Origin: a virus
Direction: 5' to 3' (one strand)
IMG/VR virus record: IMGVR_UViG_3300034152_000094
Location: 1-33,170 of that record
DNA length: 33,170 nt
Both the position numbers and the translations under genes were made by a program. Below are positions 2,367 through 32,877 of the stretch, one piece after another. Within the stretch, counting starts at the first letter, position 1. Each line of letters begins with the position of its first letter. The notes under the pieces were generated by a model. That model was given only the letters and a program-made list of their open reading frames with translations, had not been told where the DNA came from and did no database searches.

Positions 2367-3312
2367 AAATCCTCTGGGACTCTAATTAGTAATAATTAGA
2401 TGCACAGTGGGCTGTATGCTGGAAACTCCACTTTAAGCTAACATTACTAATGAGGTAACAAATGTTAGTACAGGACAATCAGCAGGTAACTGATTCTTGG
2501 TTTGCTGCCATTTTAGATGGTGAGGGTTCTTTTAGAATTACAAAGCATGGAACTCCCGAAGTCCGAATTGTTAATACGGACTTAGATATTATTGACGCTT
2601 GTGAACAATTCTTAAAAGGCAATCATATTGTCTATAAGAAGTCCTCACAGAAAGTAAGGAATCGGAAACGGTTCTTTACGGTTGGAATAACTAATGATTC
2701 TAATCAAATATTCCAATATGCTACCATGCTTTATAACCTACTTGAACCTAAGCTACAATGTCGAAGACAGCAATTCCAAAGAATACTAGGAACCTCAGAG
2801 ACTTTACGCCCACTAACTGTTGATTTCGATTGGTTGATTGGGATTTGGGAGGGAGAAGGCTACTTCTCTTTGACGAAAGGATATCGAGGTAGTGCAGATA
2901 TGCAAATTGGATTAGGTAATACTAATCCTTTGATTCTTGAAAAGGTTGCAATAAATCTGAAAGCGATTGATTGTCCTTTCTATATTAGAAGTAAGAATTA
3001 CGAACGGAAAGAATGGAAGAATGCCCAGGAAATCGTAATTCGAGGATTACATCGGTGTTATAAGTTTCTGCAAGGCACTAATACCAAGTGGTCAGCAAAA
3101 CGTAACGTTCGATTGTCCGAGCTCTGCACAGAATTTGTTAATAGCCGATTTATGAAAGAGGCTAAAGATGAGTTCACACTTCGTGAAGCCCAAATAATCC
3201 AAACATGTATTGATATCAATAACAGTTAATGATAAAGTCCAATCTGGAAGCGAAACTTCCAGGGTAAATTCCGCCAATTTACCTAAGCCTGAATAAGGTG
3301 AAAATATCTCCG
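2367..3312 (+). mobile_element. Group I intron in the major capsid gene
   Basis: The 946-base insertion interrupts the capsid reading frame. Its ends meet group I rules. The 5' exon ends TCCT (2363-2366) and pairs with GGGA (2376-2379), giving the required U-G wobble at the splice site (P1). The first five bases of exon 2, GGAGG (3313-3317), pair with CCTCT (2371-2375), the expected P10. The last intron base is G (3312). GATAAAGTCC (3231-3240), just after the internal ORF, resembles the conserved S element. It carries a LAGLIDADG endonuclease gene with its own ribosome site. Exact ends are inferred from pairing and protein continuity; the full P3-P8 core was not modelled. Confidence 0.8.
2462..3229 (+). 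CDS. Intron-encoded LAGLIDADG homing endonuclease
   Basis: This 255-residue protein has two LAGLIDADG motifs, 'WFAAILDGEGSF' (about 13-24) and 'DWLIGIWEGEGYF' (about 123-135). Each contributes an acidic catalytic residue at the dimer-like interface, and two motifs in one chain indicate a monomeric enzyme. Such proteins cut intron-less alleles so the intron is copied in, and some also assist splicing as maturases. The ATG follows TGAGGT at a normal distance. The gene is more AT-rich than the flanking capsid exons, in line with separate origin. It lies wholly inside the intron, in a loop upstream of the S-like element. Confidence 0.9.
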   Translation: MLVQDNQQVTDSWFAAILDGEGSFRITKHGTPEVRIVNTDLDIIDACEQFLKGNHIVYKKSSQKVRNRKRFFTVGITNDSNQIFQYATMLYNLLEPKLQCRRQQFQRILGTSETLRPLTVDFDWLIGIWEGEGYFSLTKGYRGSADMQIGLGNTNPLILEKVAINLKAIDCPFYIRSKNYERKEWKNAQEIVIRGLHRCYKFLQGTNTKWSAKRNVRLSELCTEFVNSRFMKEAKDEFTLREAQIIQTCIDINNS

Positions 3313-4677: not shown

Positions 4678-4998
4678 TTGAAACCGGAGATCATCATCGC
4701 TATCATCACTTTAGCTGGAGTGGTGGTCACTGGCGGCTCAACTATCATTGTTGCTATTCTCCGATTCAAAGATCGAAAGATACTTGTTGAAGTGAATGAA
4801 GCAGTTAATAACCGAGTCGCTAAACGCGGGCCAGAAGCAAAACTGCTCTATGATCTAGTGTGGGAGAACCATAAGAAAAGCCAGAAACTTGAAGGGCATA
4901 TCGATGCTACTCAGAAGAAAGTTGAAGGCGTTTCTGATCAGATAAAGGAACTCCCGTGTAAGGATCAGCAGTTCTACTGCCCATTGCAAGGTAAATAA
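4678..4998 (+). CDS. Small membrane-anchored protein, unknown function
   Basis: The 106-residue product starts at TTG, chosen because a near-perfect CGGAGGTG site lies seven bases upstream and no ATG lies near. Residues 4-28 form a hydrophobic transmembrane helix (IIIAIITLAGVVVTGG), followed by a short basic segment and a helical, coiled-coil-like tail with two late cysteines. One membrane span plus a charged tail fits a small phage membrane protein such as a holin or spanin-like partner. Its position between capsid and connector genes is unusual for a holin, so no function is assigned. Its stop overlaps the next ATG (TAATG). Confidence 0.65.
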   Translation: MKPEIIIAIITLAGVVVTGGSTIIVAILRFKDRKILVEVNEAVNNRVAKRGPEAKLLYDLVWENHKKSQKLEGHIDATQKKVEGVSDQIKELPCKDQQFYCPLQGK

Positions 4999-7011: not shown

Positions 7012-7521
7012 ATGAAACTTGGCGGTGAAAAGTTCGTTAAGCCAAACCTCGAAATAATCGTCATCCCTCGGGGCGACGGAGAAGACATCGTATTCAAGGC
7101 TGGTCCAGTCGGCAACATGGATGACTTCGAGAAGTTATGTCCACTACCTGAACCGCCCGTGAAGATGTATCCTGGCGGCCGGAAGTCCCAGAACGTCAAA
7201 GACGAAGGCTACCAGAAGAAGCTGGCAGAGCACGCCGAACTTCGCTTCCACTTCATGGCTATTCAGTCGCTCAAGATGACTGAAGAGTTGGAGTGGGAAA
7301 CGGTCGATGAGGCCGAACCCTCAACATGGACGAACTACATGGATGAACTCCGAGAGGCTGGCTTCTCGGAAGTCGAAGTTAATCGAGTTGTCCAAGGCGT
7401 CATGGATGCCAATTGTTTGAATGAAGACCGGATTGAGGAGGCGAGGCAGCGTTTTTTAGCTTCGCAGCAGGAAGCACTCGAAAAGTCATCGACCCTGGCG
7501 GACGAACCGAGCTCTACATAG
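7012..7521 (+). CDS. Tail assembly chaperone, short form (G-like)
   Basis: This 169-residue acidic, helical protein lies immediately before the frameshifted extension and close to the tape measure gene, the position of lambda G. A slippery heptamer occurs near its end (7452-7458). Most ribosomes should read on to TAG 7519-7521 and make this short form. Chaperones of this kind coat the tape measure protein during tail assembly and do not enter the virion. Start: ATG with a GGAAGG site upstream. Identification rests on position plus the frameshift arrangement. Confidence 0.75.
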   Translation: MKLGGEKFVKPNLEIIVIPRGDGEDIVFKAGPVGNMDDFEKLCPLPEPPVKMYPGGRKSQNVKDEGYQKKLAEHAELRFHFMAIQSLKMTEELEWETVDEAEPSTWTNYMDELREAGFSEVEVNRVVQGVMDANCLNEDRIEEARQRFLASQQEALEKSSTLADEPSST

Positions 7522-7688
7522 TCTGGAGGGTTTGCGAACGTCTGGGATTACGACCACCGGGTGTCAAGGATAACTTTGAGGATAATGGACTTGACATAAC
7601 AGCCAAGTTAATCGCCTACGGTCAAATACGAGACATGGAAGAATTCAAAATGGCCGAGGCGATGGCAAAAGCCGGAAGGGTGATCTGA
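7012..7688 (+). CDS. Tail assembly chaperone, long form (GT-like) by -1 frameshift
   Basis: The long product reads zero-frame codons from 7012 through TTA at 7456-7458, slips back one base, and continues from base 7458 to TGA 7686-7688, giving 225 residues. The -1 frame is open throughout and encodes 76 residues with good coding character, including 'TELYIVWRVCERLGLRPPGV' and 'DITAKLIAYGQIRDMEEF'. That is typical of the T part of G-T proteins, which recruits the tail tube subunit. No start codon with a ribosome site precedes the extension. Its TGA overlaps the following ATG (TGATG), so the extension sits in the operon as a real gene would. The extension has no entry in a simple ORF list. Confidence 0.85.
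7452..7458 (+). promoter_or_regulatory. Programmed -1 frameshift slippery heptamer TTTTTTA
   Basis: The zero-frame codons are CGT TTT TTA, so the heptamer is T TTT TTA, a canonical X XXY YYZ slippery site of the same sequence used by HIV gag-pol. Both tRNAs can re-pair after slipping back one base. It lies about 21 codons before the zero-frame stop. The -1 frame stays open past that stop. Confidence 0.85.
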
Positions 7689-20463: not shown

Positions 20464-21007
20464 TCACTGCCTCCACACTTGGTTCCAGTGATCCATAGAG
20501 TTCAGTGATCAAGGTTTCCACCAAGATCCTCGTATCTGGGTGTAGGCACATCCGCGATTTGTGTTTGGCATACCACACGCGACAATCCGGGTGACCTTGA
20601 GCGGTCCCGGCACCAACCCAATCTGCTACCATCTCACGGGCAAACCTCTCTGGCATCTGCGTCGCTCGGCATACCGCCTCAGATGTGTCATACACATGCA
20701 CCCAGAATTGCCAATGATGTTTATTCCGTTTCTGGTGAAACAACCAGGCCCGGTCGAAAGTATCATCGTCGCCCGTCCGATGGGCACCGTCTTCGAGTTT
20801 GTGTCGGAAGAAGTGGTTAGCGTAAGCAAACCATTCATCCGGGTAGAACTTCGAGTAATCATGGAGTAGTAACTGCAACCGCCCGATCTTCAATCGACGA
20901 CCGACCCGGTACACATGATACTTGTGTCTCATGATGTACTTAAGATTCTTCCAATGTTTGGACGTCTTCAAGATCCAGTACAGCTTAAGAAGTTTCCACA
21001 ACTTCAT
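20444..21007 (-). CDS. DUF5662-like phage protein
   Basis: The 187-residue basic protein has 'LLLHDYSKFYPDEWFAYANHF' (about 47-67) and 'HQKRNKHHWQFWVHV' (about 92-106), followed by 'MVADWVGAG'. This set (HDxSKF, NxHHWxxW, xADW) is what I associate with the DUF5662 family, common in phages and of unknown function; the His/Asp pattern hints at metal binding. The N-terminal 30 residues are Lys/Trp/Leu-rich. It overlaps the exonuclease gene by 23 bases and the metallophosphoesterase gene by 20. Family assignment is from memory of its motif. Confidence 0.7.
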   Translation of the reverse strand: MKLWKLLKLYWILKTSKHWKNLKYIMRHKYHVYRVGRRLKIGRLQLLLHDYSKFYPDEWFAYANHFFRHKLEDGAHRTGDDDTFDRAWLFHQKRNKHHWQFWVHVYDTSEAVCRATQMPERFAREMVADWVGAGTAQGHPDCRVWYAKHKSRMCLHPDTRILVETLITELYGSLEPSVEAVNEEADG

Positions 21008-21662
21008 GTGGTAAATCCCTTATCTGGGAGCGTTGCACCAGCCGCCGGTAGCATTCACATGTTGCTACCACATCGTCGAGTGCGGTATGGGCACGATCCC
21101 TCGATACCCCAAGTTGGCTGCATAAGTATTGCAGATTGCACTTGGGATAAGCGAATGGCTCGTGCCGCCAATCGGCAACGTCATTGTCGTACAACGCCAT
21201 GCACATTAGATCGCGGTACTGCGGGCTGAAGTAATGGTTAAAGCCCGCCTCACCAAGCCAGTCCATGAGAAACATGCGATCGAATGCCCAGTTAACCGCT
21301 ATGGGCATGATCTTTTTGAATGGTGCAAACTTCAAACTGTCCCACCATTCTCCAAACACGTCAGCCGCTAAATCAGCGTCACATCCGCTAGTCGCGATCT
21401 TGACGACACGCTTTCGGTCCTGACACATTTTATCCTTGACCACCATGTCAAGGTCTTTGCCCTGAATCCGCAGAGCCTCCAGATCGATATTCTCAATGCG
21501 TTTGGGCTGTATCTCCATCAAGAACGGGTTGATGCCCTGAGCGGGTTTCAAGTCCGGGCCAAGTATGATACAGCACACTTCAATAATATCGTGATAGCCG
21601 GGCGTGAACCCGGTCGTCTCGACGTCAATAACTCCTAAGAGATTTGAATTGAGATGTCTGAT
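20985..21662 (-). CDS. DnaQ-like 3'-5' exonuclease with ATC start codon
   Basis: A start at GTG 21578 would remove the first catalytic motif. The frame upstream encodes 'GVIDVETTGFTPGYHDIIEV', the ExoI motif with metal-binding D13 and E15. ExoII (D128 in 'NWAFDRMFL') and ExoIII (H192, D197 in 'HTALDD') complete a DEDDh nuclease. No ATG, GTG or TTG lies between the in-frame stop and ExoI. AAGGAGGTG (21675-21667) precedes an ATC at 21662-21660, with six bases after GGAGG. That gives a 225-residue enzyme of normal length. Such enzymes remove 3' nucleotides in proofreading or repair. The start is inference; the extension is directly visible. Confidence 0.85.
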   Translation of the reverse strand: MRHLNSNLLGVIDVETTGFTPGYHDIIEVCCIILGPDLKPAQGINPFLMEIQPKRIENIDLEALRIQGKDLDMVVKDKMCQDRKRVVKIATSGCDADLAADVFGEWWDSLKFAPFKKIMPIAVNWAFDRMFLMDWLGEAGFNHYFSPQYRDLMCMALYDNDVADWRHEPFAYPKCNLQYLCSQLGVSRDRAHTALDDVVATCECYRRLVQRSQIRDLPHEVVETS

Positions 21663-21675
21663 CTCACACCTCCTT
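21660..21675 (-). promoter_or_regulatory. Strong ribosome site with ATC start (exonuclease gene)
   Basis: On the - strand the sequence reads AAGGAGGTG TGAG ATC. GGAGG is separated by six bases from ATC. An ATT 14 codons on (21629) is an alternative, but GGAG lies only two bases before it, which is too close. Confidence 0.7.
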
Positions 21676-21704
21676 CAACATATTTCCAAAAGCGATGTTG
21701 AGAA

Positions 21705-22178
21705 TTAAGATCGATGATCATTGATCTCCCCCATCGAATATTGAATGACTTCAACTCCAGCTTCCCGGAACTGAGTCAAGGATAATTCGAAGGCATCCTT
21801 CCAACGTGATAAGGCATCCTCGCTTGGCAACGGGGCAACATGCCTCTTGACACCGGCCTGAATCATTTTGGCACTGCAACGCGAGCATGAGATGAAGGGC
21901 CAAGTGTAGAGACATGATCCCTCGACTGAGCTTTGGGCAGCAATTAAGGCATTCTCTTCACAGTGAATGACCATCTCATACTTGATTTTGCGGTCATTGT
22001 ACCTGTCTTCGGAGTCGTCAACGCCGGCAGCAAAGCCATTGAAACCAATCGCGATTACTGATCGGTTAGGTCGAACAAAAACAGCACCGGTCTTAGTAGA
22101 CGGGTCTTTCGACCATGTTGAAACTAACCGTGCCATTTCCAAATAACGCATGTCCCACTTTTTATTAAGCAGTTGCAT
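21705..22178 (-). CDS. Deoxycytidylate (dCMP) deaminase
   Basis: The 157-residue protein has the zinc-deaminase signature: 'VIHCEENAL' with H72 and proton-shuttle E74, and 'CSRCSAKMIQAGV' with zinc ligands C98 and C101. The N-terminal 'DMRYLEMARLVSTWSKDPSTKTGAVFV' is typical of the dCMP deaminase family. The enzyme converts dCMP to dUMP for dTTP synthesis, which fits a phage nucleotide pool next to a dNMP kinase. The usual Pro before the first Cys (PCxxC) is Ser here, a minor deviation. Its ATG overlaps the stop of the preceding methylase gene (TAATG). AAGGAAG provides the ribosome site. Confidence 0.88.
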   Translation of the reverse strand: MQLLNKKWDMRYLEMARLVSTWSKDPSTKTGAVFVRPNRSVIAIGFNGFAAGVDDSEDRYNDRKIKYEMVIHCEENALIAAQSSVEGSCLYTWPFISCSRCSAKMIQAGVKRHVAPLPSEDALSRWKDAFELSLTQFREAGVEVIQYSMGEINDHRS

Positions 22179-23071
22179 TAGGACGCTTCCTTAATCCATA
22201 GGTACTCTTTTCGGACACCTCGTTCAACGGTGCCCTCACGACCAGTCATATTGTTGTGTTCGTCGAACGCCATCGGCGTGACTCGGTTATCAACGGCATC
22301 GTTGATGTGAATCGAGTCCCACGGAAACTCGTCATAAACCGGATTCTCATAACCGGAAAGAACCACTGCACCCTCAAGGTTGAAGACCCGCTGGCACATT
22401 TCAATGTGGTCTTTGCGGGTGAACCCGGTCCCGTATGCATCCGACCCATAGTAGGGTGGGTCGAGATAGAACAATGCATTCGGTGCATCGAAGTCTTTGA
22501 AGCATTGCCGCCAATCCAGATTCTCAATCTGAACGCCACGTAGCCGTTCATGAATCTGAGGGAACATCGGAATGGCTTGGCGAATCTTGTTCGGGATATT
22601 GTTGTGGTTCTTAACCACTCTCCCGAAGAACTCGCACCGACCGGCAAAGCTCGCTTGTACTAGATAGTACCAACGAGCAGCCCGATCGGCAATGCCCTCC
22701 TCTTTCTCCCACGTGTCTCGGCACCAAGCAAAGAACTCACGAGAGTGAGGCATCAGTTCGATCTTCTCTTTCAGTTCTCGTAACGTGTCATCATTCTGGA
22801 TGGCACGGTACAGAGCTACTGAGCCAGCAAACCGATCATTGAAGACCTCCAGTTTGGAGGGAGTCTTGGAAAGCAAGACGGCACCAGACCCACCAAAGAC
22901 TTCCACATAAGTTTCATGCCACGGCAGCAACGGAAGTATGAACTCCAGTTGGCCGAACTTGTTACCCATGTAGTTGACTGGCGGGTGAAGGAACTCGTCC
23001 TTTGTTCTTGATGCATGGGAATCATCCAATGCGTTGAACATTGCTTCAAGAGATTCAGCGTCGTGTGTCAT
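22178..23071 (-). CDS. D12-class (Dam-like) adenine-N6 DNA methyltransferase
   Basis: The product (297 residues from ATG 23071) has the D12-class motifs in order: 'NYMGNK' (33-38) and 'VEVFGGSGAVLL' (56-67) for SAM binding, and catalytic 'LDPPYYG' (DPPY 204-207). These enzymes methylate adenine in DNA, often protecting phage DNA from host restriction. A longer frame opens at GTG 23155, but it lacks a ribosome site and would overlap the neighbour by 44 bases. The chosen ATG has AGCAGG about four bases upstream, and the conserved part begins well after it. The true start could be either; the enzyme identity is secure. Confidence 0.88.
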   Translation of the reverse strand: MTHDAESLEAMFNALDDSHASRTKDEFLHPPVNYMGNKFGQLEFILPLLPWHETYVEVFGGSGAVLLSKTPSKLEVFNDRFAGSVALYRAIQNDDTLRELKEKIELMPHSREFFAWCRDTWEKEEGIADRAARWYYLVQASFAGRCEFFGRVVKNHNNIPNKIRQAIPMFPQIHERLRGVQIENLDWRQCFKDFDAPNALFYLDPPYYGSDAYGTGFTRKDHIEMCQRVFNLEGAVVLSGYENPVYDEFPWDSIHINDAVDNRVTPMAFDEHNNMTGREGTVERGVRKEYLWIKEAS

Positions 23072-23111
23072 ATGCCTGCTGCACCTTGCAAGTCGAAAAA
23101 TAGATTCCACT

Positions 23112-23342
23112 TCATTCAATGATCTCCCATTCAAGTAGATCATCGGTGAAGACACCAGTTAGCGGATAGATTCTATCCGAGTCGGGGTCTTCTTTGAGCC
23201 AAACCCCTTGATTCCAAGCCGAGCCCAAATAGACTTCAGTGGTCTTCAGACCGGCTGACACAGCTTGGGCTTCAAGTTCCTCAGGGAGTCTCATCTTGAC
23301 GCGACTGATATTAGTACCGTCGGGTAGTTCCTTGACTTGCAT
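23112..23342 (-). CDS. Small protein of unknown function between two methylase genes
   Basis: This 76-residue protein starts at an ATG overlapping the MT-A70 stop (TAATG), with GGGAGGA five bases upstream, one of the better ribosome sites here. The N-terminus 'TNISRVKMRLPEELEAQAVSAGLKTTEVYL' could form a strand followed by a helix, slightly like ribbon-helix-helix proteins, but the match is not strong enough to name. The C-terminus is acidic (DDLLEWEIIE). A role with the neighbouring methylases is suggested by position only. Confidence 0.6.
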   Translation of the reverse strand: MQVKELPDGTNISRVKMRLPEELEAQAVSAGLKTTEVYLGSAWNQGVWLKEDPDSDRIYPLTGVFTDDLLEWEIIE

Positions 23343-23920
23343 TACTTCCTCCCTAAATCGAATACGGCATCTCGCCAGTCGAGATAGTCAGTTTGGTTTC
23401 CAAGTTGATCCCAGCCGTTACGCTTCTCGCGGCTGAAAATGTCAATCTTATCATGTTCAGGGTACATGCGGTTGATTACCTCATACGCCTTATCAGGCTT
23501 TCGGCTGTGTTCGCGTGACTTCTCAGTGAACACCGTCGGGCAGACGCCCCGAGCAGCAGTATCCACAGGCTGAAACTTGCCCATGTAATACCAGATCATG
23601 TACTCGTGAGTGTACCGCACAGAGAATGCCGGAGCAAGACCATTGATCTTGTCCCAGATAAATATGGCATGTCGCCGATAGCCAATCCATTTGAGGTTGG
23701 CCAACGTCAAGTCCAAATACTGATCGACAGTCCATAGGAACATGTTATGATCCGGTGCCATTTGAGGTATTACTACTTCCCGTTGGAAAGTAAGTATGTC
23801 CTCAAAAGACATCGTCTCGTAAGCAAGTTCCTGTTTCGCATCGGCTTTCGCTTTCTTACCTGCCATTCTTAGATCCCATGGGGGATCAATCATTGCAGTT
23901 TGATACTTCTTAGAGGTCAT
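23342..23920 (-). CDS. MT-A70 family adenine-N6 methyltransferase
   Basis: From ATG 23920 the protein has 192 residues and begins 'MTSKKYQTAMIDPPWD', placing the catalytic DPPW at residues 12-15, the usual position for compact phage MT-A70 enzymes. Further motifs include 'MFLWTVDQYL' and 'AIFIWDKING', and a late 'EHSRKP' with 'KIDIFSREKRNGWDQLGNQ', which match the family's C-terminal conserved block. The enzyme would methylate adenine in DNA or RNA. An upstream start (23971) would overlap the kinase gene by 62 bases, while the chosen start overlaps by 11. Confidence 0.85.
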   Translation of the reverse strand: MTSKKYQTAMIDPPWDLRMAGKKAKADAKQELAYETMSFEDILTFQREVVIPQMAPDHNMFLWTVDQYLDLTLANLKWIGYRRHAIFIWDKINGLAPAFSVRYTHEYMIWYYMGKFQPVDTAARGVCPTVFTEKSREHSRKPDKAYEVINRMYPEHDKIDIFSREKRNGWDQLGNQTDYLDWRDAVFDLGRK

Positions 23921-24476
23921 GGCCTGTAACGAATTCCATAACCTGCTCGTACAAGTAGTTGAGATTGCCATCGTTTACGATGACAGCATCCCAGTCCTTA
24001 TAATCAGCCAGTGCTTCGTCCGCAACATCGTGCGAGACTCCCACATCTGGGCGATCAATGCGGATGATTAATCCACCGAAGTCATGAATGCGGTCTGCTT
24101 CGTTCGGGAAGCGGCAGTCAGAGATCAGTAGGATATCCGTGTCATCATGCTGCGTGAATAGCAGGTCAACCCACGTGTTAACGTAGATTGCCCGCCCGAC
24201 TGTCGTGCCGAACTCAATCCAGATTTCGCGGGGTGTCTTGCCAACGGTCGGCAACGGTTCTTCTCGCAGATGTGCGTTATGAGCTTCTTCATAGAACTCC
24301 GGCCCGCGGAGTCCGTCCCACCCGTAAAGCCGATGGCACATCGCCTTCAACTCATAGGCAAAGGAACCTTTCTGTATATTCTTCTTTGAACCAGTGGTTC
24401 TCAGGCCACTAATTAAGAACTTCGTCGCAGTATCTTTGCCGACACGCTTGCGGTGTCCGAATGCAATCGGGATAAT
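23910..24476 (-). CDS. Deoxynucleoside monophosphate kinase with ATT start codon
   Basis: A conventional start gives only a 146-residue piece without a P-loop. The open frame continues upstream and encodes 'IPIAFGHRKRVGKDTATKFL', a Walker A of the phage dNMP kinase type (GHRKRVGKDT). It is followed by 'SFAYELKAMCHRLYGW', then 'DLLISDCRFPNEAD'-like sequence with the Asp-Cys-Arg-Phe motif of this family. No ATG, GTG or TTG precedes the P-loop. AGAGGAGGTG lies upstream, and six bases after GGAGG is ATT (24476-24474), giving 188 residues. The enzyme phosphorylates dNMPs. It overlaps the small HTH gene by 64 bases. Identity is strong; the start codon is inference. Confidence 0.85.
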   Translation of the reverse strand: MIPIAFGHRKRVGKDTATKFLISGLRTTGSKKNIQKGSFAYELKAMCHRLYGWDGLRGPEFYEEAHNAHLREEPLPTVGKTPREIWIEFGTTVGRAIYVNTWVDLLFTQHDDTDILLISDCRFPNEADRIHDFGGLIIRIDRPDVGVSHDVADEALADYKDWDAVIVNDGNLNYLYEQVMEFVTGHDL

Positions 24477-24604
24477 GGTACACCTCCTCTGGACCCTACC
24501 AAAATGTGCATAATGTAACCTCGTGAGACTCCATACCGGTTAGCAATTGCTTGCTGTGTCATTCCATTTGCGTACAAATCAGGAATCGGTCTTTGTTTCT
24601 TCAT
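24413..24604 (-). CDS. Small helix-turn-helix protein
   Basis: The start chosen is ATG 24604, with AAGGAAG upstream; a much longer frame to 24835 runs antisense-like through the primase gene and is not credible. The 63-residue product contains 'IPDLYANGMTQQAIANRYGVSRGYIMHIL' (about 7-35), a clear helix-turn-helix of resolvase or sigma-region-4 type, followed by a basic tail. It may regulate this operon or assist the primase. It overlaps the primase end by 26 bases and the kinase start by 64 bases, which constrains its C-terminal tail. DNA binding is likely; the target is unknown. Confidence 0.7.
   Translation of the reverse strand: MKKQRPIPDLYANGMTQQAIANRYGVSRGYIMHILVGSRGGVPLSRLHSDTASVSAKILRRSS
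24474..24490 (-). promoter_or_regulatory. Strong ribosome site with ATT start (kinase gene)
   Basis: The - strand reads AGAGGAGGTG TACC ATT: GGAGG, six bases, ATT. The arrangement equals that of the ATC start at 21660-21675. The site lies inside the coding region of the small HTH gene. Confidence 0.7.
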
Positions 24605-27600
24605 TCTTAACTTCCTTGGGGAGCAATTGGTCCCCAACCAATTGTAGCGGTGGACTAGGTTCTGAGCCAGGCTGTAAAGGTTCCCATGCGATATTACCAA
24701 TGTAGAATTGACCTTGTTTCTCGTAGACGCGGCCTTTGGGAAATTGTTTAGGCATCCTTTTGCCAGTCCGAATCTTACCCCAGTCTTGCCGATATGCCGG
24801 ATCGAGCCAATCAGCGAACTTCTCGTAGAACTCACTCCACTTGATCAAACCGCCGTCGACGGGGAAGCAGTTCTCACGGATGAATATCTGCAAAAACGAC
24901 TCATTAGATATTGCAACCGCTTGCTTGATCTCGGTTTCAATAACCGGGACATTCAAACGATCAGACGGAGGCGGTACTTCCAGATTCAGAATCTCTGCGA
25001 GGAAGTCCGGTGCCTCTTTCTCCAACTGTGGGATCATATCCTTCTTCGGAATCAAGTCCACTGGATCAAGGGTCGGGACTTCGATCATTGTGATACGAGT
25101 ATCCGCACTGATGATCGGGCAGAAGTCAGGACTGTTAGCACAATGTACAAAGTGACAAGTATTCGTAACACTGTAAGGCGTCATACCCTTTTGGTGAATC
25201 TGAATCGTGGACGATGTTACCCAGTCTTTGATTCGCTCCTGAGCCTGTTTGTTCGTCCGTAAGTCCGTTTCTTCAATCACACCGATCACCGACCCTTCAA
25301 GCTCACCGTTGAATCCGCTGGGGTTAATGAGTGCGGAATCCGCACGCACAACACCGCAAGTCAAAAGCAGTGAGATCGCTTCGTGAAAGATCGACTTACC
25401 AGTACCCTGCTCTTCTGAGTAGAGGAACAAGTAAGGCAACGGCTGCTCGGGTTCCTGAAACAGGGAAGCTATCCAGCACTTCAAGTAGTCAGCACCTTTG
25501 AGGATACCATTCTGTTGACACCACTTGTGGTTCTCGATTGCTTCATCCAGGCCCCGACCGATGTGATTGAGGATCTTCATCCAAGTGGGATAGTCCAGTT
25601 TCTCAGTGATCTCTTTCGGGTGAAAACGTAGCTGTGCAGCATTCCGATTCCACATCCGACCGCCAATGAACTCTGGCTGGAACGGCTTGCAAACAACCGT
25701 CCAAGGCTTCGAGATTGCGGAGCCGAGAATCTGATCTACCTCTTTGCCTGAGCGACTGTGCGTACCACGTAGGAAGACTTTGATGTCATCCTTCTTCTTG
25801 AGACGCCATATGTCGTCGCCCTGGAGGGTCCATCCAGTAGTATAGTCCTGACCGTCGGCTTCCGTCACCAGATGCCGAATCATGTCGTCGTAGTTTGCGA
25901 CTTCCGTTTCAACGGGGGCAGCAGCCCGGATGTTAAGGAATTTCATCCAGGTCTTTTTACCCGGTAGCCAACCCTTCATATCGCCGCCGTCATCCCGATC
26001 ATCCTTATCGACTTCCACCATGAGGCGTCCATCTTTATGGATGCTTAATCGGGTCTTTCGGCCTTGGTACTTGGGGTCAAGTCCAATATCAGAGCCCAAA
26101 AGACTAGCAGCTTTATTCGCGGATTGAGCATCCATGAAGTTAAAGCCGCCCTTCTGATCTTCCACACCTTCCGTATGTCGAGCAGCAGTCTTCAAATCCG
26201 GATCAACGTTGTAGAAGCAACGCGTCCAGCCCTGACCATCTTGCTCCCACGGTTCTGCTTCCTGCACGCCCGGTGTGAATCTTCGGATCACCCATCCACC
26301 GTTCAAAAGAGGAAAGGCGAAGCAATTAGAAGTTACAATTCCACTAGCTAAAGTGAAATTATGGTGATAAGACACTGAGGGGCAATAAACATCTTCAATT
26401 CGTCCTTCATCCCAACCAACTGCTACAACAGTTGTTCCAGATTTGAATCGACGATCTTCGAGATTCTTTTCAAATCTTTCCCGCTGATCACTTCTGAAGA
26501 AGTGATCAGGTTCAAGGTTGTAAAGCTGAATTGTGAAACAATACTCTATTGATCCTTCTTTGAAATTAGTGTCTCGTTCCGATTCTCTGACCTCATTGCA
26601 ACGAAAACCAGCATAAATAGCTAAGTCCCTTATGTCTTTAAGATCATGATAATCAGATTGATACAAAGTCAACCTAGCACCATTCTCCTTCATACTACCA
26701 TCAGCACAGAGAAACCCTAGTACGAAACCTAGGGCATACTCCTGAGAACATTCGATAGGTAACTCTTTCCAATGTTCTGGAAGTTGCCGAAAATAGCGGC
26801 CATCAGTAGTTTCACTATAGTTCCCAAACTCCTCAAGAATCGGACGAAGGTCAATATCATTGCCGTGGAGCTTAACTTGACAGTTTGCTTTACGCTTTAA
26901 TAGGCCTGATTCTTCAATACGCCAACCGTCACCAAATACAAATCCATGAGCTACCCCCTCTAAATCAGGTTCCCCTAATTCAAAGCGAGCCATGAACGCG
27001 GTATCTCCACGACGACTATCAGCTTTAAGCTGACAAGTCATTTTACGAGGCCCAAATGGTTTGTCTGTGTTGTAATTGTAAGTCAACCAATAATGATTAT
27101 CAGTTGCCCACTCTATAGCTCCGTTTCCAAATCGAATTGGATAGGTCTTCCTGATTCCATGATGTTTAATCGGCACATCAATCCATTCAAAACCATCACC
27201 CGTCCAGACATACAATTCAGCATGTCCATCAGTGTCGTAAATCTCCTTCAGAGTACGCACCCCGGAACGTGTAATTACACGTGTATTCCCGCTCGCGCAG
27301 TTCCAATCTTGACCACGCTCCCGCCCTTTGGACACGGTCTCGAAGATTCCTTTGAAGTTCAACTCCTCATGGGCTTGCTTCAGGTCATAAGTATGCACAG
27401 TGAGCATCTTCGAGTCCTGGTCCCATGCCCATTGAGACTTATGTTCTTCAAGCCAACGAATTAACTTCTCGTGTTGCTTGTCAATTGGGATTGCTGATCG
27501 GCGTGACGTTACCTCGTCGAAAGCATCTTCGAGATTGCCATCGCCCTGGTCAACAACAAACTTCGGCTGGGGTCGGTTACGGCGACCACTGATGACCTGC

Positions 27601-31762: not shown

Positions 31763-31874
31763 GGAGAGGTAGCTCAGTCGGTAGAGCAAACCCACCGCGA
31801 TCACATGCCCGCTAGGGCCGATGCACTGGGTTATCATCATTCTTTAGGTCGTGGGTTCGAGTCCCACCCTCTCC
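31763..31874 (+). tRNA. Aberrant tRNA-like gene, anticodon uncertain
   Basis: Acceptor GGAGAGG/CCTCTCC, D arm GCTC-AGTCGGTA-GAGC (31772-31787) and T arm GTGGG-TTCGAGT-CCCAC are all perfect. The part between them is far too long: the element is 112 bases instead of about 75. AACCC (31789-31793) can pair with GGGTT (31828-31832) around a 34-base loop holding a GCCC/GGGC hairpin, and a long variable segment follows. No anticodon can be read with confidence; TGG is possible. CCA is not encoded. Confidence 0.55.
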
Positions 31875-31907
31875 TCTTGCGTCAGGTAGGCAACCTTGAT
31901 TAGTCGC

Positions 31908-31994
31908 CGGAAGCATAGCCAACACAATTCCATGCCCCACAGGGCTGATACATTGGATTATCATAGGTCGCTGGTTCAAATCCAGCCCCTCCGA
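31908..31994 (+). tRNA. Degenerate second tRNA-like element
   Basis: The T arm GCTGG-TTCAAAT-CCAGC is intact, and CCCTCCG (31987-31993) pairs with CGGAAGC (31908-31914) in five of seven positions. A normal D arm is missing. A 33-base internal block (31932-31964) is 79 percent identical to 31805-31837 in the preceding element. It is probably a decayed duplicate or a structured RNA; function is unclear. Confidence 0.35.
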
Positions 31995-32073
31995 CTTGTG
32001 GGTCGATTGGATCAGGGTTATCTCAATTTTGGTTTGAATCTTATCCCTATCTGCATTCCTTTTGGAGAATTAA

Positions 32074-32765: not shown

Positions 32766-32840
32766 TGCGGAGTAGAGCAGTTGGTTTAGCTCGGGAGCCT
32801 CATAAGTTCCAGGTCGCAGGTTCGAGTCCTGTCTCCGCCA
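32766..32840 (+). tRNA. tRNA-Met(CAT), initiator-like
   Basis: A complete 75-base cloverleaf: acceptor GCGGAG/CTCCGC with T1 opposite C72 unpaired, D stem GAGC/GCTC with A11-T24, anticodon loop CTCATAA (anticodon CAT), T arm GCAGG-TTCGAGT-CCTGT, discriminator A73. An unpaired 1-72 position and purine 11-pyrimidine 24 are marks of bacterial initiator tRNA; elongators usually have Y11-R24 and a paired end. The three consecutive G-C pairs of the initiator anticodon stem are absent (A29-T41, G30-T40, C31-G39). CCA is not encoded. Confidence 0.88.
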
Positions 32841-32877
32841 CTCGATTTTCAAGACTGGCGTGTTAGTGCCAGATACA

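Follow-up and report, generated by a model that had tools for sequence, protein, structure and literature searches.

In an uncultured phage, two neighbouring replication genes, encoding a DnaQ-like exonuclease and a dNMP kinase, are most probably translated from isoleucine codons that took the place of an ancestral ATG, AUC in the exonuclease and AUU in the kinase. They lie on a 33 kb phage contig, IMG/VR virus record IMGVR_UViG_3300034152_000094, analysed over its positions 1 to 33,170 (the window). Initiation itself at these codons is what we infer; it is well supported and very probable for the exonuclease, and likely for the kinase. The features concerned are listed here.

20985..21662, minus strand: DnaQ-like exonuclease gene, 225 aa when translated from ATC 21662 (PF00929, E 4e-12; PHROG 192; homology to record G001 from residue 1)
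21660..21662, minus strand: proposed ATC start codon of the exonuclease (same ATC in the syntenic phage L002, record G001; ATG there in L153, L156 and most homologues)
21667..21675, minus strand: Shine-Dalgarno sequence of the exonuclease, AAGGAGGTG, complementary over 9 bases to the 3' end of the usual 16S rRNA (-13.0 kcal/mol)
21664..21681, minus strand: possible five-codon mini-ORF, ATG TTG AAG GAG GTG TGA, read directly from the sequence
21705..22178, minus strand: dCMP deaminase gene (PF00383), directly upstream of the exonuclease
23910..24476, minus strand: dNMP kinase gene, 188 aa when translated from ATT 24476 (PF21448, E 2e-10; PHROG 139, E 4e-41)
24474..24476, minus strand: proposed ATT start codon of the kinase (gapless alignment with the ATG of L002 and L056)
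24481..24488, minus strand: Shine-Dalgarno sequence of the kinase, AGGAGGTG, 8-base match (-13.3 kcal/mol, ranked first among 31 genes)
24413..24604, minus strand: 63-codon ORF with helix-turn-helix (HTH) matches too weak for the Pfam cut-offs; lies between the genes for primase and kinase and overlaps the start of the latter

Two frames lacking a conventional start before the catalytic motif

As the initial annotation had noted, both enzymes lose an essential motif if a conventional start is used. The exonuclease frame reads TGA(21677) AGG AGG TGT GAG ATC(21662) AGA CAT CTC AAT TCA AAT CTC TTA GGA GTT ATT GAC GTC GAG, and ATG, GTG and TTG are absent from the preceding in-frame stop to the catalytic motif; the first conventional codon of the stop-to-stop ORF is codon 32 (counted from zero), past the motif. 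The protein matches a DnaQ-like family profile (PHROG 192), and its N-terminal DxE is intact only with a start at the isoleucine codon. The same annotation had called this motif that of ExoI: an exonuclease with a DxE it is, of the DnaQ/RNase T type (PF00929, PHROG 192) and not ExoI specifically. Similarly, in the kinase frame TAA(24542) is followed by 21 codons without ATG, GTG or TTG and then by ATT(24476) ATC CCG ATT GCA TTC GGA CAC ... GGC AAA GAT ACT. Its first conventional codon is codon 63 of the stop-to-stop ORF (counted from zero), past the Walker A P-loop GHRKRVGKDT, which begins at codon 7. The dNMP kinase family profile (PF21448, PHROG 139) is matched, and the N-terminal P-loop is intact only if the isoleucine codon is the start, for which the ATC one codon after the ATT could be an alternative.

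Both isoleucine codons follow strong ribosome-binding sites. GGAGG at 21673 is separated by six bases from the ATC and GGAGG at 24487 by six bases from the ATT, and the observation that the same spacing precedes the ATG of the primase (28310) and of the metallophosphoesterase (20463) was borne out. When Shine-Dalgarno strength was ranked over 31 window genes, with our own choice of starts and the usual 16S 3' end assumed for the host, the kinase (-13.3 kcal/mol) and the exonuclease (-13.0 kcal/mol) took ranks 1 and 2; the TTG-start gene at 4678 ranked fourth. Local RNA folds around the starts showed nothing distinctive. The initiator tRNA would probably pair with the first two bases of AUC and AUU, the 30S subunit being held at the isoleucine codon by a well-spaced Shine-Dalgarno helix of 8-9 pairs, six bases after GGAGG.

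Isoleucine start codons are very rare: published reconstructions hold one AUG to AUU switch among 61,358 AUG starts (Belinky et al. 2017, PMC5622118). Among 324 conserved ORFs of the window, G001 and relatives, three stand out in that homology reaches back beyond any usual start in all comparisons: the exonucleases of the window and of G001 (15 of 15 comparisons each) and the kinase of the window (7 of 7). A small ORF of L057 was also flagged, in 3 of 3 comparisons, and several further ORFs, flagged in one or two comparisons each, are weak cases. As far as examined, the remaining flagged ORFs come from alignments that overhang by a few codons, from pairs of nearly identical contigs, from frameshift ORFs of tail chaperones and from one broken gene. 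A G001 tail gene at 40506 was rejected as a start-less gene, being a frameshifted one; the G001 counterpart of window gene 6508 is divided between two frames (L043:458-973 = G001 40458-40973, plus strand) by an indel that arose by mutation or assembly. The ORF at 7437-7688 (plus strand) of the window is conserved, has no start of its own and overlaps the end of gene 7012-7521, which fits a chaperone frameshift; it was rejected as a case of non-canonical initiation and is probably a tail assembly chaperone frameshift product.

Homologues and the origin of the isoleucine codons

Single-sequence searches of IMG/VR found no relatives of the exonuclease or the kinase, and phage tblastn gave no match to the exonuclease, so that the metallophosphoesterase and the primase were needed to reach relatives. 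A metallophosphoesterase scan led to the syntenic phage L002 (record G001) and a primase-profile scan to 24 contigs. The primase-scan contigs and earlier loci provided 21 exonuclease and 9 kinase ORFs, plus one weaker, counting duplicates and the window itself. When IMG/VR was scanned with patterns for the exonuclease start site, ATG stood there in 36 contigs and an isoleucine codon in five; one of the five is G001, three are unrelated and one, L122, carries a true exonuclease homologue. The further isoleucine pattern matches L119-L121 were rejected as isoleucine-start exonucleases, as they are not exonucleases.

The G001 exonuclease is 73% identical to that of the window from residue 1 and is likewise without a usual start. 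It reads TAA CCT ATC AAA CAT CTG AAT GGA, with the in-frame stop two codons upstream of the ATC and GGGAGG eight bases before it. The codon 12 positions before the Asp of the DxE is ATG in most exonucleases and is followed by x-H-L-N or x-H-W-N; some homologues have further start codons upstream of that ATG, and in three (L058, L059 and L067) this codon is not ATG but one lies further upstream. In the sister phages L153 and L156 the ATG at that codon is the only possible start. The alignment therefore backs the ATC proposed in the initial annotation, which recurs in G001 where relatives have ATG. The kinase ATT was upheld in the same way, as it faces the ATG of G001 and of L056: the N-terminus IIPIAFGH of the window (ATT) stands opposite MRVIAFGH of G001 (ATG).

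Between the window and G001, 18 of 61 four-fold sites of the exonuclease are identical, which together with the 73% protein identity indicates that silent sites are saturated and that the exonuclease is under purifying selection. The ATC has thus persisted over this divergence, though one substitution would restore ATG, and its presence in a phage as distantly related as G001 argues against both a sequencing error and a recent chance event. That both codons end in C says little on its own: 60% of the other shared isoleucine codons match too. Conservation of the exonuclease ATC extends to G001 only, and the kinase ATT, known from one contig, is not conserved.

In a tree of 45 exonuclease sequences, the window and L002 are sisters and lie next to L153 and L156, with L122 elsewhere. 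The L122 homologue (E 4e-78) reads ATT ATC CAT CTT AAT, preceded by AAAAAGGGAGGGTACTCAC; an in-frame TTG ten codons upstream has no Shine-Dalgarno sequence (-0.6 kcal/mol). Some of the nearest kin of L122 start five codons upstream, so that their ATG here could be an internal codon, and L122 is a probable isoleucine-start exonuclease. Well-supported branches force two changes, and the isoleucine codon of the exonuclease would accordingly have arisen twice independently.

The Shine-Dalgarno sequences of these genes are stronger than in ATG-start relatives and in other genes, again assuming the usual 16S end for the host. For the exonuclease, values of -13.0 (window) and -10.2 kcal/mol (G001) compare with -6.1 in L153 and -3.9 in L156, and L122 (-11.8) compares with the nearby L155 (-6.1); for the kinase, -13.3 in the window compares with -3.9 before the ATG of G001. 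The G001 exonuclease sequence, eight bases from its ATC, is good and not exceptional. This comparison shows Shine-Dalgarno compensation of starts that are predicted to be weak, a behaviour described before (PMC5622118, PMC13009471).

At each switch to an isoleucine start, a different gene lies directly upstream than in the ATG relative. The dCMP deaminase gene stands between Dam and the exonuclease in the window and G001, whereas Dam directly precedes the exonuclease in L153 and L156. An HNH endonuclease gene (PF13392) overlaps the ATT start with its 3' end in L122. The kinase ATT of the window lies within the small HTH ORF, whereas G001 has a HAD-like gene with an ATGA overlap at this place. 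The HTH ORF (24413..24604) has weak matches to HNH endonucleases and is perhaps a C-terminal remnant of one. Replacement of the gene directly upstream probably removed the ATG and supplied a new Shine-Dalgarno sequence, and the weaker initiation may have been tolerated or mildly favoured. A stop codon lies one base before the exonuclease ATC in the window, where it ends the mini-ORF (21664..21681), and three bases before it in G001; these near stops and the overlaps at both ATT starts would also allow translational coupling, and the mini-ORF may be coupled to the exonuclease. A broader scheme, in which mobile or new genes inserted before start codons repeatedly leave isoleucine starts, the inserted 3' end gives the strong Shine-Dalgarno sequence, and the weak start is then retained to control the dosage of the exonuclease, perhaps helped by an initiator tRNA without three G-C pairs, is decidedly unlikely in our estimate.

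Several other insertions and mobile-element-like genes were seen. In L059 (11477-12470, plus strand) an HNH-endonuclease-like ORF lies directly before the kinase, with GGGAGG near its 3' end, then the kinase ATG. About 320 residues resembling an intein are inserted in the window primase (about 26330-27290, minus strand) and are absent from that of G001, and an ORF at 2462-3229 (plus strand) between structural genes resembles, by eye, a LAGLIDADG-type homing endonuclease.

Errors, fusions and regulation as alternatives

That assembly or base errors conceal true ATG codons is most improbable as an account of the two genes. A frameshift-type error or mutation elsewhere in G001 and the occurrence of the kinase ATT in a single contig would suit it, but the exonuclease ATC is found in two divergent contigs and the two genes have the two strongest Shine-Dalgarno sequences. 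The recurrence of the ATC in an independent contig makes an error in the exonuclease very unlikely; one in the kinase is unlikely. Just as improbable is a fusion of both proteins to an upstream ORF by stop readthrough or frameshifting, which would require no start codon. It would account for the in-frame stops upstream of the exonuclease frame in both phages and for the overlap of HTH ORF and kinase, yet it requires readthrough of TAA and then TGA in the window and of TAA in G001, while relatives begin unfused with ATG at the same codon. Moreover, no X_XXZ_ZZN -1 motif is seen by eye in the HTH-kinase overlap, and the Shine-Dalgarno spacing fits the isoleucine codons.

Translation from the isoleucine codons could also serve a purpose. 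The operon-wide system of low-level or IF3-sensitive initiation suggested by the initial annotation was not borne out: in G001 the codon facing the kinase ATT is ATG. A regulatory device in the sense of IF3-sensitive or weak initiation, which keeps exonuclease and kinase low or ties them to the translation state of the host in the manner of infC and sigR, adds a purpose to translation from isoleucine codons and does not exclude it; we regard it as rather unlikely. It draws on the retention of the ATC at saturating divergence, where one substitution restores ATG, and on the two gains of an isoleucine codon in the exonuclease. IF3 sensitivity is expected in principle, as IF3 is reported to repress non-canonical starts (the GTC of sigR) and infC uses ATT or ATC (PMC5472188). 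Set against this are the missing conservation of the kinase ATT in G001 and the very strong Shine-Dalgarno sequences that offset the weak start and may bring output back up instead of holding it down. Control by IF3, or by a regulatory system of its own, is conceivable.

A phage initiator-like tRNA that relaxes start-codon choice and makes isoleucine codons usable is a very unlikely cause. Both the window and G001 do encode a tRNA-Met(CAU) that has A11:U24 and is mismatched at 1:72, and in the window the three anticodon-stem G-C pairs are missing. However, G026 encodes an initiator-like tRNA with three G-C pairs and has no isoleucine-start exonuclease, which weakens such a tRNA as the specific cause; the tRNA-Met genes of G014 and G016 may be of the same kind, and few genes show the effect.

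The tRNA-Met(CAU) genes lie at 32766-32841 (plus strand) in the window and at L044:11279-11355 (plus strand), and show the initiator features 1:72 mismatch, A11:U24 and A73; the G001 copy keeps two of the three G-C pairs. A further tRNA-like gene of the window (Rfam match 31763-31875, missed by ARAGORN) is followed by a second tRNA-like stretch (together 31763-31997, plus strand), and both carry a roughly 30-base insert in the anticodon region, CATGCCC..GGGC.GAT.CA.TGG.TTATCAT, as in tRNA introns or a repeat insertion.

Relation to known non-canonical starts

Since gene finders assume ATG, GTG or TTG, genes of this kind are cut past their catalytic residues, and both enzymes would be annotated as broken. 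An AUC start conserved in phage and an independent AUU in the same gene family would provide natural test cases for the parts that Shine-Dalgarno strength, IF3 and the initiator tRNA play in start choice. Our comparison also suggests gene insertion at operon junctions as a source of non-canonical starts.

Functional genes that start with an isoleucine codon, as proposed here, include infC, which encodes IF3 and uses AUU in E. coli and ATC in Streptomyces (PMC5472188), and pcnB, which uses AUU (Binns and Masters 2002 via PMC13009471). IF3 is described as a repressor of such starts (PMC5472188; PMC13009471). The present cases differ in that they concern phage replication genes and have an unconserved kinase start. 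In Staphylococcus aureus, cvfC1 (AUU) as well as ccpN and infC (AUA) combine a weak isoleucine start with a long Shine-Dalgarno sequence, as the genes of the window appear to do, and the ccpN start is conserved across species; those starts were identified by ribosome profiling and reporters, with about 10-30% of the output of AUG, whereas ours come from comparing sequences (PMC13009471). Similarly, switches from AUG to non-AUG codons are reported to pair a weaker start with a stronger Shine-Dalgarno sequence (Belinky et al. 2017, PMC5622118), as here, though they concern mainly GUG and UUG, and the parts of that study drawn on give no AUC switch. The GTC start of Streptomyces sigR is another non-canonical start for which annotators pick a wrong usual codon, as would happen here; it differs in its codon, in belonging to a bacterial stress regulator and in that control by IF3 was shown by experiment (PMC5472188).
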